Assembly: GCF_013201665.1 (NCBI RefSeq)
Contig: NZ_CP053840.1
Location: 2,728,001-2,792,000, forward strand
DNA from: Arcobacter venerupis
GTDB taxonomy: Bacteria > Campylobacterota > Campylobacteria > Campylobacterales > Arcobacteraceae
Direction of reading: 5' to 3'
DNA length: 64,000 nucleotides
Below the pieces are notes generated by a model. The model saw only the letters and a list, made by a program, of their open reading frames with translations, had not been told where the DNA came from and searched no databases. The position numbers and the translations under genes are program-made. Below are positions 30,454-51,989 of the stretch, in pieces (position 1 is the first letter of the stretch; every line of letters begins with the position of its first letter).

Positions 30454-31353
30454 ATGCAAAATAAACATCAAAAAGTTCAAACTCTACTTGATGCAATACC
30501 ATATATTAAAAAATTTTTCGGAAAAGTTATTGTTATCAAATATGGTGGCTCAGCACAAACAAGCCCTGATTTAAAAGAAAAATTTGCTCAAGATATTGTT
30601 TTTCTTTCACTTTTAGGAATCAAACCTGTTATTGTTCACGGTGGAGGGGCTAGAATTACTGAATTATTAACAAAATTAGAAATTCCTTCACACTTTGTTG
30701 ATGGACACAGAGTTACTTGTGAAGAAAGTATGAAAGTTGTTGAAATGGTGTTAAGTGGTGAAATCAATAAAAATATTACATCTTTACTTACACATCATGG
30801 AGCAAAAGCAATAGGAATTTCAGGAAAAGATTCAGCTTTAATAAATGCAATCCCAAAAGATGGTGGGAAATTTGGATACACAGGTGAAATCACAAAAGTA
30901 AATGGTGCAATGATTAATAATCTAATTAAAGAAGGATTTATTCCTGTTATTGCTCCAATTGGAGATAGCGCAGAACCAAATCATCCAGGATTTAATATAA
31001 ATGCAGATGTTGCCGCTTGCGAAATTGCTGCTGCTATTGGAGCACAAAAAGTTCTATTCTTAACTGACACTATTGGTGTTTTAGATAAAGAGGGAAAATT
31101 AATTCAAACTTTAGATAAACAAAGTGTTGAAAACTACAAAAAAGATGGAACAATCGCTGGTGGAATGATACCAAAAGTTGATTCTTGTATTGATGCAATA
31201 CACAATGGCGTAAATAAAGCGCACATCATTGATGGAAGAGTTGAACACTCTATTTTACTTGAGTTATTTACAAGTGATGGAATTGGAACTCAATTTATAA
31301 GAAAAGAAAATCCTAATAATGGGATAGATATGGAAAAATTATTAAGTGAATAA
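30454..31353 (+). CDS. argB: Acetylglutamate kinase
   Basis: A 299-residue amino-acid kinase phosphorylating N-acetylglutamate in arginine synthesis. It shows VIKYGGSAQTSPDLKEKF near residue 26, PVIVHGGGARITELLTKL near 64, GEINKNITSLL and the C-terminal TIAGGMIPKVDSCIDAI near 235. The N-terminal helix (QNKHQKVQTLLDAIPYIKKF) is that of the arginine-sensitive hexameric type. The frame is open 60 codons further upstream inside addA, but the ATG at 30454 with AGGA upstream gives the family start. Confidence 0.96.
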   Translation: MQNKHQKVQTLLDAIPYIKKFFGKVIVIKYGGSAQTSPDLKEKFAQDIVFLSLLGIKPVIVHGGGARITELLTKLEIPSHFVDGHRVTCEESMKVVEMVLSGEINKNITSLLTHHGAKAIGISGKDSALINAIPKDGGKFGYTGEITKVNGAMINNLIKEGFIPVIAPIGDSAEPNHPGFNINADVAACEIAAAIGAQKVLFLTDTIGVLDKEGKLIQTLDKQSVENYKKDGTIAGGMIPKVDSCIDAIHNGVNKAHIIDGRVEHSILLELFTSDGIGTQFIRKENPNNGIDMEKLLSE

Positions 31354-31357
31354 ATAA

Positions 31358-31475
31358 AGAGCAACGAGTTGCTCTCTTTAGAGTTTGTTTCTTTAGCTGA
31401 AATTTATTTTCAGCGTTAAAAGAAATTAAAAAATAATAGGTCCCTAAAAAATTGGGACAATTTTTAAGGATAATT
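31358..31475 (+). promoter_or_regulatory. Structured leader upstream of thrC (copy A of a two-copy element)
   Basis: Hairpin I AGAGCAA-CGAG-TTGCTCT (31358-31375) is followed by a box CTTTA..GTTTG.TTCTTTA (31376-31395) and hairpin II GCTGAAA-TTTAT-TTTCAGC (31396-31414). Next, GTCCC (31440-31444) can pair with GGGAC (31454-31458), or AAAAATTG with CAATTTTT (31447-31465); these are mutually exclusive. The AAGGA site and ATG follow directly. The same order recurs before ispH (49331-49432). Hairpin I may also end the argB transcript. Confidence 0.6.
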
Positions 31476-32957
31476 ATGAATTTTATTGAAACAAGAGGAA
31501 ATGATGGTATTAAACCAGTTGAAGTGCCATTTAGTGAAGCTATTTTAAATCCTAGCACTTCATTTGGTGGATTATATGTACCAAAAAGTTTACCAAAATT
31601 AGAAGATAACTTTATTTTAAATCATATTAACTCTTCTTATAAAGAACTTGCTTTTGACATATTAAAAGCATTTGAAATTGACATTGATGAAAATGAAATA
31701 AATAAAGCCTTAGCTTTATATGACAATTTTGATGATGCGTCAAATCCTTGCCCAGTTGTTAAAGTTAAAGATGATTTATTTGTTCATGAACAATATCATG
31801 GTCCAACACGTGCATTTAAAGATATGGCTTTACAACCATTTGGTTCAATTCTTTCTTCAATTGCAAAAAAAAGAGATGAAAAATATTTAATTCTTGCTGC
31901 AACTTCTGGAGATACAGGACCAGCTGCACTTAATACTTTTAAAAATAAAGAGAATATTCAAGTAGTTTGTCTTTATCCAGATGGAGGAACAAGTGATGTT
32001 CAAAGACTTCAAATGGTTTGTGAAGATGGAAAAAACCTAAAAGTTTTAGGAATAAAAGGAAATTTTGATGATGCACAAAATGCACTAAAAAAACTATTAG
32101 CATCTAAAACTTTTAAAGAAGAGTTAGAAAAAGACAATATCAATTTAAGTGCAGCAAACTCAGTAAACTTTGGAAGAATTATTTTTCAAATAATTTACCA
32201 CTTCTGGTCATATATCCAACTTTTAAAACAAGAAGAGATTACAAATGGTGAAAAAATTTATCTAGTTGTTCCATCTGGAAACTTTGGAAATGTTTTAGGT
32301 GGATTCTATGCACTTCAAATGGGTGTTCCAATTGAAAAACTTTTAGTTGCATCAAATGAAAACAATATTTTAACTCAATGGATTAATACAGGAGTTTATG
32401 ATATTAGAGAAAAAGAGCTAAAACTTACAAAATCTCCTGCAATGGATATATTAAAATCTTCAAACATCGAAAGAGTAATCTATTCATTATTTGGAGCAGA
32501 GAGAACTAAAGAATTAATGGAAGATTTAAATAAAAATAATATCTTTAAAATGAGTAAAACTGAAACAGAAAATCTGCAAAAATACTTCTCTGCAATTCAC
32601 TCAGATGATACTTTTGGTACAAAAACTATAAAAGAGTTTCTTAATATTGGTTACTTAATGGACCCTCATACTGCAACTTGTATTAAAGCTTACAATGACT
32701 TAAGACAGAAGCCATTAAAAACTGTTATTTATTCAACTGCTGAATGGACAAAATTCTCTCCAACAGTTTTAAATGCACTAAAAGAAAATGACAACAAATA
32801 CTCTGATAAAGAGGCTTTAGAAGAAATTTCAACAAAATACAATGCAACTTTAGTTGATAGTATAAAAGAATTATTTAATGCAAAAATAAATCATTCATTG
32901 GTTATTGAAAAAGAAAATATTGAAGAAGAAATTGTAAAATTTATTAGAGAATCATAA
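31476..32957 (+). CDS. thrC: Threonine synthase
   Basis: A 493-residue PLP enzyme turning O-phosphohomoserine into threonine. The N-terminus MNFIETRGNDGIKPVEVPFS is that of the fold-type-II enterobacterial/yeast-like class. The PLP lysine is in GPTRAFKDMALQPFG near residue 117, LAATSGDTGPAAL and VVPSGNFGNVLGGFYA follow, and the C-terminal DPHTATCIKAY is conserved. I use the ATG at 31476, 5 bases after AAGGA; an upstream in-frame ATG at 31452 lies inside the leader hairpin. Confidence 0.96.
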   Translation: MNFIETRGNDGIKPVEVPFSEAILNPSTSFGGLYVPKSLPKLEDNFILNHINSSYKELAFDILKAFEIDIDENEINKALALYDNFDDASNPCPVVKVKDDLFVHEQYHGPTRAFKDMALQPFGSILSSIAKKRDEKYLILAATSGDTGPAALNTFKNKENIQVVCLYPDGGTSDVQRLQMVCEDGKNLKVLGIKGNFDDAQNALKKLLASKTFKEELEKDNINLSAANSVNFGRIIFQIIYHFWSYIQLLKQEEITNGEKIYLVVPSGNFGNVLGGFYALQMGVPIEKLLVASNENNILTQWINTGVYDIREKELKLTKSPAMDILKSSNIERVIYSLFGAERTKELMEDLNKNNIFKMSKTETENLQKYFSAIHSDDTFGTKTIKEFLNIGYLMDPHTATCIKAYNDLRQKPLKTVIYSTAEWTKFSPTVLNALKENDNKYSDKEALEEISTKYNATLVDSIKELFNAKINHSLVIEKENIEEEIVKFIRES

Positions 32958-48052: not shown

Positions 48053-49330
48053 GTGGAAAAATTCAGCATTAAAAAATTGACAAAAGCATTTGATGTAGAA
48101 ATAGATTCAATTGCAAGTGATAAATCAATATCTCACAGATGTGCAATGTTTTCGCTTTTTTCAAACCAAACTTCATACATTAAAAACTATTTAACAGCTG
48201 AAGATACGTTAAATACTTTAAGTATCGTAGAACAATTAGGTGCAATTATTAAAAGAGATGGTTCAAGCGTTGAAATAACGCCAACACCAACTCTTACTGA
48301 GCCTTCTGATGTTCTTGATTGTGGAAACTCAGGAACAGCAATGAGACTATTTTGTGGGCTATTAGCTAGCGTTGATGGTGCATTTACACTAACAGGTGAT
48401 AAGTATTTAAGAAATAGACCAATGAAAAGAGTTGCAGATCCACTAAGAAGTATCGGTGCACTAATAGATGGAAGAGAAAATGGAAATAAAGCACCTTTAT
48501 TTATTAGAGGAGTAAAAGAGCTTCAACCATTTACTTACCATTCTCCTGTTGATTCAGCTCAAGTTAAATCTGCAATGATTTTAGCAGCTCTTAGAGCAAA
48601 TGGAATTTCAAAATATAAAGAGAATGAATTAACAAGAGACCACACAGAAAGAATGTTAAAAGGAATGGGCGCAAAGCTTGAAAATGATTCAGATGGTTTC
48701 ATAAATATTCATCCTCTAACTGAACATTTAAAACCTTTAAATATTACAGTTCCAACTGATCCTTCCTCTGCATTTTTCTTTGCACTTGCAGCTTCTATTA
48801 CAAAAGGTGCAAGAGTTCTTATTAAAAATGTAACTTTAAATCCAACAAGAATTGAAGCTTATCAAGTTTTAAAAAGAATGGGTGTAATTGTAAACTTTAT
48901 TGAAAAAGAGAATGTTTACGAGCCTATTGGTGATATTGAAGTAATTAATAATGAATTAAATGGTGTTGACGTTAGTGAAAATATATCATGGCTTATTGAT
49001 GAGTTGCCAGCCTTATCAATTGCAATGAGTTTAGCAAATGGAAAATCAAAAGTTTCAAATGCAAAAGAGTTAAGAGTTAAAGAGAGTGATAGGATTTCAA
49101 GTGTTGTAAACAACTTAAAACTTTGTGGAGTAACTTATAAAGAATTTGAAGATGGATATGAAATAATTGGTGGATCTATACAAAAAGCTGTAATAAATTC
49201 TCACGGTGACCACAGAATTGCCATGAGTTTTGCAATAGCTGGACTTAATAGTGATATGGAAATTGAAGATGTTCAATGTATTGAAACATCTTTCCCAAAT
49301 TTTAAAGAACTTCTAGACTCTTTATACTAA
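48053..49330 (+). CDS. aroA: 3-phosphoshikimate 1-carboxyvinyltransferase (EPSP synthase)
   Basis: A 425-residue enzyme of the shikimate pathway. It shows [15 protein letters not shown] near residue 22, the active-site [15 protein letters not shown] near 88, [13 protein letters not shown], and the C-terminal [12 protein letters not shown] and [16 protein letters not shown]. The sequence around LDCGNSGT resembles class II/Campylobacter-type enzymes. GTG start behind AAAGGA, 15 bases after pheT. Confidence 0.96.
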
Positions 49331-49432
49331 GAATAACTCGTTGTTCCCTTTATGGTTTGCTTCTTTAAAGATTGCTTTGCCAACTTGTTAAAAAAATGTC
49401 CCTTAAAATTGGGACAATTTTAAGGATAATTA
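49331..49432 (+). promoter_or_regulatory. Structured leader upstream of ispH (copy B of a two-copy element)
   Basis: Hairpin I GAATAA-CTCG-TTGTTC (49331-49346), box CCTTTATGGTTTGCTTCTTTA in two parts (CCTTTATGG, TTTGCTTCTTTA; 49347-49367), then GTCCC (49398-49402) with GGGAC (49411-49415), or TTAAAATTG with CAATTTTAA (49403-49423). The AAGGA site and ATG follow. It has the same order and spacing as the thrC leader; in hairpin I a G-C pair there is A-T here and a C-G pair is T-G, so pairing is preserved while sequence changes. Confidence 0.6.
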
Positions 49433-50269
49433 ATGAAAGTAAAATTAGCATCAAATTATGGTTTTTGTTTTGGTGTAAAAAGAGCAATTAAAATTGCAGA
49501 AGATTATAAAAACTCAGCAACAATGGGTCCACTTATTCATAACCAAGATGAAATAAATAGGCTACAAAATGATTTTAATGTAGGTTTATACAATAATTTA
49601 AGTGATGTAAAAGAGAATGATACGGTAATTATTAGAACACATGGTATTCCCAAAAATGAATTAAAAAATTTAAGAAAATTAAATGCAAAAGTTATTAATG
49701 CAACTTGCCCATTTGTTACAACTCCTCAACAAATAGTAAAAAAAATGTCTAATGAAGGATATTCTATACTTATTTTTGGAGATGCGGATCATCCAGAAGT
49801 AAAAGGTGTTCAATCTTATGGAGAAAATCAAGAAGACGTTCATATTATTTTAGAACCCTCAGATTTAGACAATATTGTATTTAGGCAAAATAAAATTGCA
49901 ACCGTTGCTCAAACAACTAAAAAGAAAGAAAAATATCTTGAAATTGTTAATACTTTAATCTTAAAAAATAAAGAAGTTAGAGTTTTTAATACTATTTGCG
50001 ATGCAACTTTTGAGAATCAAGATGCAGCTAGAGATCTTTCAAAAGAGGTTGATATTATGATTGTAATTGGTGGCAAAAACTCATCAAATACTAAACAATT
50101 ACACTCAATTTGCTTAGAAAATTGTCCAGATTCTTACCTAATAGAAAATGAAACTGAACTTGAAAATATTTGGTTTAATAAAAAAGATTTATGTGGTGTA
50201 ACAGCTGGTGCAAGCACTCCTGACTGGATAATACAACAAGTTATAGATAAAATAGAATCATTCAACTAA
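49433..50269 (+). CDS. ispH: 4-hydroxy-3-methylbut-2-enyl diphosphate reductase
   Basis: A 278-residue iron-sulfur enzyme, last step of the MEP isoprenoid pathway. Cluster ligands Cys12 (NYGFCFGVKRA), Cys90 (NATCPFVTT) and Cys187 (NTICDATFENQ) are all present, with THGIPKNE and GGKNSSNTKQL for substrate binding. In many bacteria ispH lies next to rpsA, as here. Confidence 0.97.
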   Translation: MKVKLASNYGFCFGVKRAIKIAEDYKNSATMGPLIHNQDEINRLQNDFNVGLYNNLSDVKENDTVIIRTHGIPKNELKNLRKLNAKVINATCPFVTTPQQIVKKMSNEGYSILIFGDADHPEVKGVQSYGENQEDVHIILEPSDLDNIVFRQNKIATVAQTTKKKEKYLEIVNTLILKNKEVRVFNTICDATFENQDAARDLSKEVDIMIVIGGKNSSNTKQLHSICLENCPDSYLIENETELENIWFNKKDLCGVTAGASTPDWIIQQVIDKIESFN

Positions 50270-50336: not shown

Positions 50337-51989
50337 ATGGGTATCGAAGATATTGATTTAGGTGAAGACTTTGATTTTGAGCAAATGCTTAATGAGTCTT
50401 TTGAGAATGCAGAAAATAATTCTGTAGTTGATGGTGTAATTGTAGAAATTTCTAGTGAAAGAGTTCTAGTTGATGTTGGTCAAAAAATTGAGGGTCAATT
50501 AAATATTTCTGAAATTACAATTGGTGGTGAAGTTAAATACAAAGTTGGTGACACAATTCCTGTTATGTTAATGGGAAGCAGAGGTGAGAGACCAAGTATT
50601 TCACATAAAAAAGTTTTACAAAAAGAAAAATTTGACGCTTTTGTAAAACTTCATGGTGAAAATGTAGAAGACGTAACTATTGAAGGTAAAATCGTTTCTG
50701 TTAAACAAAGAGGTGGTTTTATAATCGAAGATACTGATGGTTGTGAATATTTCATGCCGATGGCACAATCTTACTTAAAAGCTATTGGAGCAGTTGGAAA
50801 AACTGTTAAAGCAAAAGTTATTAAAGTAAACAAAGCACAAAATTCAATTATTGTTTCAAGAAAAAAATTAATTGAAGAATCAAAAGCTGTAAAAGACAAT
50901 AAAGTAACTGAAATTTTAGATAATAAAGAAGCAGTTATTGGAACAATCAAAAAAATTACTTCTTATGGAATGTTTGTTGATTTAGGTGGAATTGATGGTT
51001 TAGTAAACTACAATGAAATCTCATACAAAGGTCCTGTTAATCCTGCAAATTATTACAATGAAGGTGATGAAGTTTCAGTTGTTGTTTTATCTTATGACAA
51101 AACAAAACAACATTTATCATTATCTATCAAAGCTGCACTTTCTAATCCTTGGGAAGAGATCAAAGACGAATTAGAAGTTGGAGATACAATTACTGTAACT
51201 GTTTCTAATTTTGAATCTTATGGTGCATTTGTTGATTTAGGAAATGATATTGAAGGTTTACTACATATTTCAGAAATTTCATGGAATAAAAACTTAAAAA
51301 ATCCAAAAGAACTTTTAACAATTGGTGAAGAAATCAATGTTGAAGTTATTGAATTAAATATTGAACAAAAAAGATTAAGAGTATCTTTAAAAAATCTTCA
51401 AGAAAAACCTTTTGCAAAATTCACTAATGACCATAAAGTTGGTGATGTAATTAAAGGTAAAATTGCCACATTAACTGACTTTGGTGCTTTTGTTAGCATT
51501 GGTGATGTTGATGGTTTATTACACAATGAAGAAGCTTCATGGGAACCTAATGCAAAATGTAAAACTCTTTACAAAAAAGGTGATGAAGTTGAAGTAAAAA
51601 TTATCAAAATTGATAGAGAAAAAGAAAATATCTCATTATCAATTAAAGAAATTGCTGATTCTCCTGCAAAAAAATTCCAAGATGCTTATAAAATTGGTGA
51701 TATTGTAAAAGGAACAGTAAAAGATGCTAAAGATTTTGGAATTTTCATCAAATTAGAAAATAACCTTGATGGTTTAATTAGAAATGAAGATTTTGGTCCA
51801 TTAAAAGCCGATGAAGTAAAAAATGGTGATGAAATCGAAGCAGTTGTTGTAAATATTGATACTAAAAAAAATAGAGTTAGATTATCTGTTAGAAGATTAG
51901 AACAACAACAAGAAAGAGAAGTTTTAAAATCTGTAAATGATGATTCATCTATGACTTTAGGTGACATTATAAAAGATCAAATGAAATAA
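50337..51989 (+). CDS. rpsA: 30S ribosomal protein S1
   Basis: A 550-residue mRNA-binding protein built of six S1/OB repeats. An acidic N-terminus (MGIEDIDLGEDFDFEQML) precedes them. The last four are the most regular, each with a G-x-F-V-DLG-x-x-GL type core (YGMFVDLGGIDGLVNYNEIS, YGAFVDLGNDIEGLLHISE, FGAFVSIGDVDGLLHNEE, FGIFIKLENNLDGLIRNED). Delivers mRNA to the 30S subunit. It heads rpsA-serA-efp. Confidence 0.97.
   Translation: MGIEDIDLGEDFDFEQMLNESFENAENNSVVDGVIVEISSERVLVDVGQKIEGQLNISEITIGGEVKYKVGDTIPVMLMGSRGERPSISHKKVLQKEKFDAFVKLHGENVEDVTIEGKIVSVKQRGGFIIEDTDGCEYFMPMAQSYLKAIGAVGKTVKAKVIKVNKAQNSIIVSRKKLIEESKAVKDNKVTEILDNKEAVIGTIKKITSYGMFVDLGGIDGLVNYNEISYKGPVNPANYYNEGDEVSVVVLSYDKTKQHLSLSIKAALSNPWEEIKDELEVGDTITVTVSNFESYGAFVDLGNDIEGLLHISEISWNKNLKNPKELLTIGEEINVEVIELNIEQKRLRVSLKNLQEKPFAKFTNDHKVGDVIKGKIATLTDFGAFVSIGDVDGLLHNEEASWEPNAKCKTLYKKGDEVEVKIIKIDREKENISLSIKEIADSPAKKFQDAYKIGDIVKGTVKDAKDFGIFIKLENNLDGLIRNEDFGPLKADEVKNGDEIEAVVVNIDTKKNRVRLSVRRLEQQQEREVLKSVNDDSSMTLGDIIKDQMK

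Follow-up and report, generated by a model that had tools for sequence, protein, structure and literature searches.

The IS200/IS605 family and REP elements insert in an orientation-specific manner without target site duplication (TSD) and have subterminal hairpins. The ERIC/IRU/RU-1 repeats of enterobacteria are structured, non-coding, approximately 127 bp long and co-transcribed with neighbouring genes, and the effect of ERIC on mRNA depends on its orientation and comes about through a conformational change that ribosomes induce (PMC2229807). The MITEs RUP, Correia/NEMIS and YPAL are short, highly base-paired, non-autonomous and dispersed, and their mobility has been read from empty and filled sites (PMC2229807, PMC3049150). 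BOX elements of pneumococcus are modular small repeats that can join untranslated-region structures (PMC3049150). A motif survey of Arcobacter sp. L left most of its novel intergenic regions unnamed in the text (PMC6429828).

Here, we analyse the leaders of thrC and ispH in a 64,000-nt stretch of Arcobacter venerupis (NZ_CP053840.1, positions 2,728,001 to 2,792,000; hereafter the window, with coordinates counted from its first base). The two leaders very probably belong to an as yet undescribed family of mobile repeats, structured, non-coding and approximately 95–120 bp long, that insert between a stop codon and the Shine-Dalgarno (SD) sequence in Campylobacterota and their phages. Rfam gave no match at gathering score in the window and only sub-threshold matches (E 4–5) in copies. 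The literature searched holds no description of the repeat, nor of a stop–SD target with a re-formed SD and a bistable hairpin.

The thrC and ispH leaders

Both leaders are gaps between co-directional genes, argB–thrC (stop 31353, ATG 31476) and aroA–ispH (stop 49330, ATG 49433), and all features are on the plus strand. The downstream genes thrC (31476–32957; TIGR00260, 280 bits) and ispH (49433–50269; TIGR00216, 321 bits) are named from NCBIfam matches, and the putative argB and aroA from their sequences. The two leaders have the same order of parts: hairpin I (6–7 bp, 4-nt loop), a box CTTTA(G), GTTTG, a stem-loop P2, an A-rich linker and a 3' module (module B). This module has the layout a-b-a'-b' (GTCCC, CCTTAAAATT, GGGAC, AATTTTAAGG), and its last bases are the SD AAGGA. 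The initial annotation had described such a shared order upstream of both genes, and every part that it named is present where it placed it; it lacked a third stem-loop, P2, which is complete at thrC but has partly decayed at ispH.

The thrC copy covers 114 bp (31354–31467), as delimited by empty orthologous sites and covariance-model (CM) scores (R1, 94.3 bits; R2, 49.1 bits), with the argB stop TAA (31351–31353) on its left and GGATAATT-ATG of thrC on its right. Hairpin I (GAGCAA-CGAG-TTGCTC, 31359–31374), found by reading the sequence and backed by covariation, is followed by the invariant box CTTTAG (31376–31381), the first of two CTTTA repeats, and by the linker AGTTTG. P2 (31388–31425), located by mapping R1 columns to the window, has an outer stem CTTCTTT..AAAGAAG (31388–31394/31419–31425) around an inner hairpin (31396–31402/31408–31414). 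In module B, the state A hairpin (31440–31458) pairs GTCCC (31440–31444) with GGGAC (31454–31458) and leaves the SD free, and the state B hairpin (31443–31469, CCTAAAAAATTG/CAATTTTTAAGG) takes in the SD and excludes state A. The SD AAGGA of thrC (31466–31470) contains the insertion junction, between AA of the element and GG of the target. The start of thrC is likely the ATG at 31476, behind this AAGGA. A program-made open reading frame call starts thrC at a TTG inside module B (31452–32957).

The ispH copy, delimited in the same way, covers 93 bp (49331–49423; R1, 75.7 bits; R2, 37.5 bits) between the aroA stop (49328–49330) and GGATAATTA-ATG of ispH. It consists of hairpin I (GAATAA-CTCG-TTGTTC, 49331–49346), again from sequence reading and covariation, the box CTTTA (49348–49352), P2 with a decayed 3' side (49360–49397; its 3' arm and the linker are partly deleted), the state A hairpin (TGTCCC/GGGACA, 49397–49416) and the state B hairpin, which includes the SD (CCTTAAAATTG/CAATTTTAAGG, 49401–49425). 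The SD AAGGA of ispH lies at 49422–49426. An S1-like open reading frame follows ispH, at 50337. The box has two exact matches in the window, at thrC and ispH, and the next best there have 2–3 mismatches. The thrC leader folds better than 200 of 200 dinucleotide shuffles (z −4.4); for the ispH leader z is −2.4.

Copies, empty sites and decay

R1, a covariance model of module A, was built from seven copies and finds copies in 30 of the 31 genomes of the same genus. We collected 104 copies, 103 of which have an open downstream gene; the sole exception (L122) is a weak match. The initial annotation had proposed a covariance-model search, and held that a lack of further copies, or of covariation beyond the first two, would speak against a common element. 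The search gave approximately 103 copies in the genus and more beyond it, with clear covariation. The downstream genes belong to 45 unrelated protein families without a pathway theme among them. Those with NCBIfam names include hom, thrB, thrC, hisA, hisH, metE, cysK, cysD, kdsA, thiD and ispH, further adk, gatC, hypA, ureG, urtE, lpd, dnaK, tal and acetaldehyde dehydrogenase, as well as a tautomerase, an ApbC-like protein, a thiol peroxidase (bcp) and a DJ-1 family protein. The genes thrC and ispH are just two of these 45 families, and the empty orthologous sites described below show an element inserted between stop codon and SD and not a leader particular to the two genes. An AGG lies within 16 nt of the start in all 103 genus copies, and an upstream stop lies at −5 to 20 nt in 75 of the 95 scorable ones. 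The stop codon at the junction is usually TAA. The genus copies are oriented like the gene that follows and have AGG at their end, by which an SD is re-formed.

Outside the genus, 30 of 249 genomes in an order-wide sample match, both from other Arcobacteraceae, with the same intercistronic layout, and from other families. When 85,000 species were scanned for the exact pattern, nearly all matches were in Campylobacterales, including Arcobacter, Sulfurospirillum and Campylobacter; the few under other names may be mis-binned records. The element also matches 28 viral stretches, and Mu-like prophages carry copies.

The orthologous argB–thrC and aroA–ispH gaps were compared across the genus genomes. 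Empty argB–thrC gaps (TAA-GGAATATT-ATG; G004, G008, G017, G031 and others) are 8–18 nt long, mostly 8–12, against 98–136 nt for filled ones, decayed remains included (G000, G011, G042, G005, G007). At aroA–ispH, the gap is empty in 24 of 30 genomes (TAA-AGGTAATTTAA-ATG and similar; 2–12 nt, mostly 8–12), and filled gaps measure 80–172 nt (G000, G015; decayed copies in G001, G006, G011, G017). The added DNA is placed exactly between the stop TAA and the GG(A) of the SD. Because of these empty sites and the exact stop–SD insertion we read the element as a small inserted repeat and not as a metabolite-specific leader, in line with the mobile small repeat that the initial annotation had offered as an alternative. 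A phage junction, between what appear from their sequences to be tail sheath and tube genes, reads TAA-GGAG when empty and TAA-element-GGATT when filled. Empty and filled sites occur at the bcp and hypA loci too, and bcp presents a series of intact copies, hairpin I with module B, module B only (in the window's genome), scars and short gaps. In G222, a tandem second copy has inserted within the SD of the first, and nested element remnants lie upstream of L013, L106 and L077.

Bounded copies measure 93–122 bp. The element is dispersed, shorter than 200 bp, non-coding and polymorphic for empty and filled sites, as MITEs are. However, in six bounded insertions only 3–8 of 15 end positions match, with a run from the ends of 0–1, and thus no terminal inverted repeats (TIR) are seen; flanks share 0–6 nt, with no constant length and none at bcp, and thus no consistent TSD. 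In five of the six sites, (T)AA is common to the left flank and the 3' end.

Near-identical copies stand at unrelated genes. The thrC copy of G005 and the lpd copy of G016 are 91.5% identical over 117 nt, and the thrC copy of G042 is 89.9% identical to the same lpd copy. Both thrC copies are nearest to this lpd copy, and the window's thrC copy, which is not among their best matches, has the acetaldehyde dehydrogenase copy of G007 as its nearest non-orthologue (86%). The thrC site holds at least two different subfamilies across species, and in G086 exactly identical 69-nt cores are found at three loci. One subfamily (L018, L023, L026, L110, L118, L119, L120, L121), with copies at unrelated genes, has an extra insert of two tiny hairpins (TCTCAAAGAGAG with GTGCAAGCAC, GTTCTAAAGAAC or GTTTAACAAC) that separates the CTTTAG box from P2. 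At tal, the copies of G031 and G004 (L075:1072-1181, plus strand; L087:2560-2669, minus strand) carry an insertion of approximately 38 nt in the P2 region.

The usual form in Arcobacteraceae is A+B. Copies of module A that lack B precede hypA, adk and others; in the window's genome, bcp and hypA are preceded by B-only copies. Its hemE-like gene (L180) has a truncated copy with a P2 remnant and an intact module B, a candidate domesticated ribosome-binding region. A truncated copy before a hemE-like gene is conserved in several species (L016, L020, L021, L025, L027). In some decaying copies module B persists longer than module A, in keeping with its retention as a new ribosome-binding region. 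Campylobacter-type copies are A-only, and some precede phage genes at the stop–SD junction. The chromosomal copies of G086 and G073, which are partly identical, are scattered through long stretches between genes. In these two Campylobacter-type genomes, mosaic stem-loop repeat arrays surround flagellin and other genes (L137–L156); several loci there have identical element cores, and CTAAAGCCCC..GGGGACTTTAG ends stand head to head.

Covariation and the two SD hairpins

The initial annotation, comparing two copies, had noted that hairpin I keeps its pairing through compensatory change, and the seven copies of module A bear this out far beyond chance: 14 pairs are changed on both sides (7.6 when shuffled), 95.9% of cells are paired (78% when shuffled), and sliding the partner by one column lowers pairing to approximately 55%. 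Compensatory changes in P2 include CTTC/GAAG, CTAC/GTAG and GTTC/GAAC. The module-A stems contain 91 GU pairs against 21 AC mismatches, a count that leans high because the alignments were fitted to the structure; the excess supports folding of the sense strand there.

In module B, stems a/a' and b/b' overlap and are mutually exclusive, and one of them pairs with the SD, as the initial annotation had proposed; both are backed by covariation. Stem b/b' is 95.6% paired, with 32 double-change cells against 11.7 when shuffled. In its Watson-Crick-only register there are 11 GU and 5 AC, no clear GU excess, and its near-perfect complementarity may come from RNA selection or from the insertion mechanism. 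For a/a', whose strand shifts by one base between copies so that fixed columns are uninformative, we scored each copy separately, with one representative for each of 42 families, and shuffled by swapping a' between families. The mean score is 15.4 against 13.2 ± 0.36, above 300 of 300 shuffles, and the types include GTCCC/GGGAC, GGTTCC/GGAACC and GGTTTCC/GGAAACC.

Mean energies at 37 °C are −8.7 kcal/mol for state A and −9.7 kcal/mol for state B, and in 40 of 75 copies B is the more stable one. The shift with temperature is weak (B is favoured in 48 of 75 copies at 10 °C and in 39 of 75 at 45 °C). A bistable effect on translation through the SD hairpin, including control or attenuation, is plausible, given that the 3' module keeps exclusive, covarying and near-isoenergetic hairpins. 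Predicted SD accessibility has a median of 0.23 over 102 copies, with 0.61 and 0.65 for the window copies and 0.32 (ispH) and 0.75 (thrC) for empty sites; filled and empty sites do not differ in a consistent direction. Of the regulatory reading first put forward, the exclusive, covarying stems at the SD stand, whereas a leader specific to thrC and ispH does not.

A stem between the CTTTAG box and the SD (P1), seen in the minimum free energy fold of thrC, finds no support as a conserved feature: the SD arm differs between copies although the box does not, and only a few P1 pairs are left, by eye, in Campylobacter copies. In the ispH copies of G015 and G011 (L331, L327) and in a copy of G265 (L130), a further hairpin like CCTTAAAAAAT..ATTTTTTAAGGCACC is nested in module B.

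Mobility, rival readings and known systems

Movement is inferred from empty and filled sites; it would be slow, since many copies are orthologous between species. The mechanism may be one that is specific for strand and orientation, leaves no TSD and has TAA^GG as its target, with the element mobilized in trans by a separate enzyme. Insertions at such sites inside coding sequence would be removed by selection, leaving the copies at SDs, where the co-transcribed RNA would act: with a/a' formed, the re-formed SD would stay available, and with b/b' formed, its use would be damped. A more speculative version, to which we give a modest chance, is that the target is the SD itself, where AAAAGG might be recognized through pairing with CCTTTT of the element's own anti-SD strand b; the element would then be a mobile ribosome-binding region whose bistable hairpin leaves the host gene with a usable re-formed SD.

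Movement as single-stranded DNA by a Y1 transposase, as a non-autonomous relative of IS200/IS605 or REP, would be a special form of the mobile-repeat reading. The missing TIR and consistent TSD, fixed orientation, hairpins near both ends and the (T)AA common to left flank and 3' end in five of six sites are consistent with it. However, Y1 genes (PF01797) are present in only 6 of 31 genomes, compared with 30 of 31 for the element, no element ends were found next to them, the insertion specificity includes the right flank GG and the presumed cleavage site is covered by the terminal hairpin; we consider this relationship conceivable but rather improbable. Reverse transcriptases occur in 14 of 31 genomes and not in the window's genome, and neither they nor resident Y1 transposases have a distribution that fits the element's, so both were rejected as mobilizer. 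The window's genome has a 186-aa Y1 transposase-like frame without adjoining element ends (L382; G000:C1:1789224-1789499, minus strand), and G001 and G033 have similar frames.

Somewhat less probable still, and on balance unlikely, is a dedicated cis-regulatory leader, riboswitch- or thermosensor-like, in which a-b-a'-b' would be a translational switch answering a general signal and the spread from gene to gene would be recruitment. Such a leader agrees with the constant orientation and placement at the SD, with a pair of exclusive, covarying hairpins whose energies are similar, with orthologous conservation (the tal copy in six genomes) and with the persistence of module B in some copies without A. 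Against this, it would have to serve 45 unrelated families with no pathway theme, it is often absent, with a clean short gap, and copies that precede hypA, adk and phage genes lack module B; moreover, there are few conserved unpaired bases, a weak response of the state energies to temperature and no Rfam match. Very improbable is a transcription antitermination element (boxA/boxB-like) made of hairpin I and UUUGCUWCUUUA. The order of a hairpin and a UGC.CUUUA-like box, and copies in rRNA operons of other families, would suit it, but the rrn leader of the window's genome has, by eye, a different boxA-like stretch and no motif, P2 takes up the box-like strand in pairs that show compensatory changes, and one of the rRNA operon copies is antisense. 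These copies are module-A-like; in G190 they lie directly before the 23S 5' end (L175:1733-1799, minus strand; L176:1840-1906, plus strand), and in G175 the antisense one lies in the 23S–5S spacer (L135:1501-1572, minus strand).

If the mobile-repeat reading is true, ordinary operon genes of Campylobacterota repeatedly acquire, lose and remodel their ribosome-binding regions. Mobile repeats of small size are common, but one that lands between stop and SD in gene orientation, with an SD-proximal switch of its own, would be a natural route to rewired translation of operon genes, and the dozens of filled and empty ortholog pairs, including thrC and ispH, allow direct measurement of the effect of a structured ribosome-binding region on expression. 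The element also calls for caution, as a structured, covarying leader common to unrelated genes need not be a riboswitch.

The element shares with translational riboswitches and SD-sequestering RNA thermometers the layout of mutually exclusive SD-free and SD-paired hairpins, but it is an insertion, without a gene theme or known sensed signal. On these comparisons it counts neither as a typical MITE nor as a demonstrated derivative of IS200/IS605. It is short, highly base-paired, non-autonomous and dispersed, as RUP, Correia/NEMIS and YPAL are, and co-transcription with neighbouring genes is a further likeness to YPAL (PMC2229807, PMC3049150), whereas the missing TIR and consistent TSD, and the site and orientation specificity TAA^GG, separate it from RUP, Correia/NEMIS and YPAL. 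From IS200/IS605 and REP it differs in having no Y1 gene with matching ends and in a target that includes the 3' flank GG. With BOX it has modularity in common, its modules occurring as A, B and A+B, although the ends of BOX are inverted and its descriptions do not restrict it to the stop–SD junction. Like ERIC/IRU/RU-1, it is a structured non-coding repeat in a similar position as to co-transcription with its neighbours. By description it is set apart from ERIC in that it does not fold into a single long hairpin with paired ends, and in that it lies in one orientation, exactly between stop and SD, with the SD re-formed.
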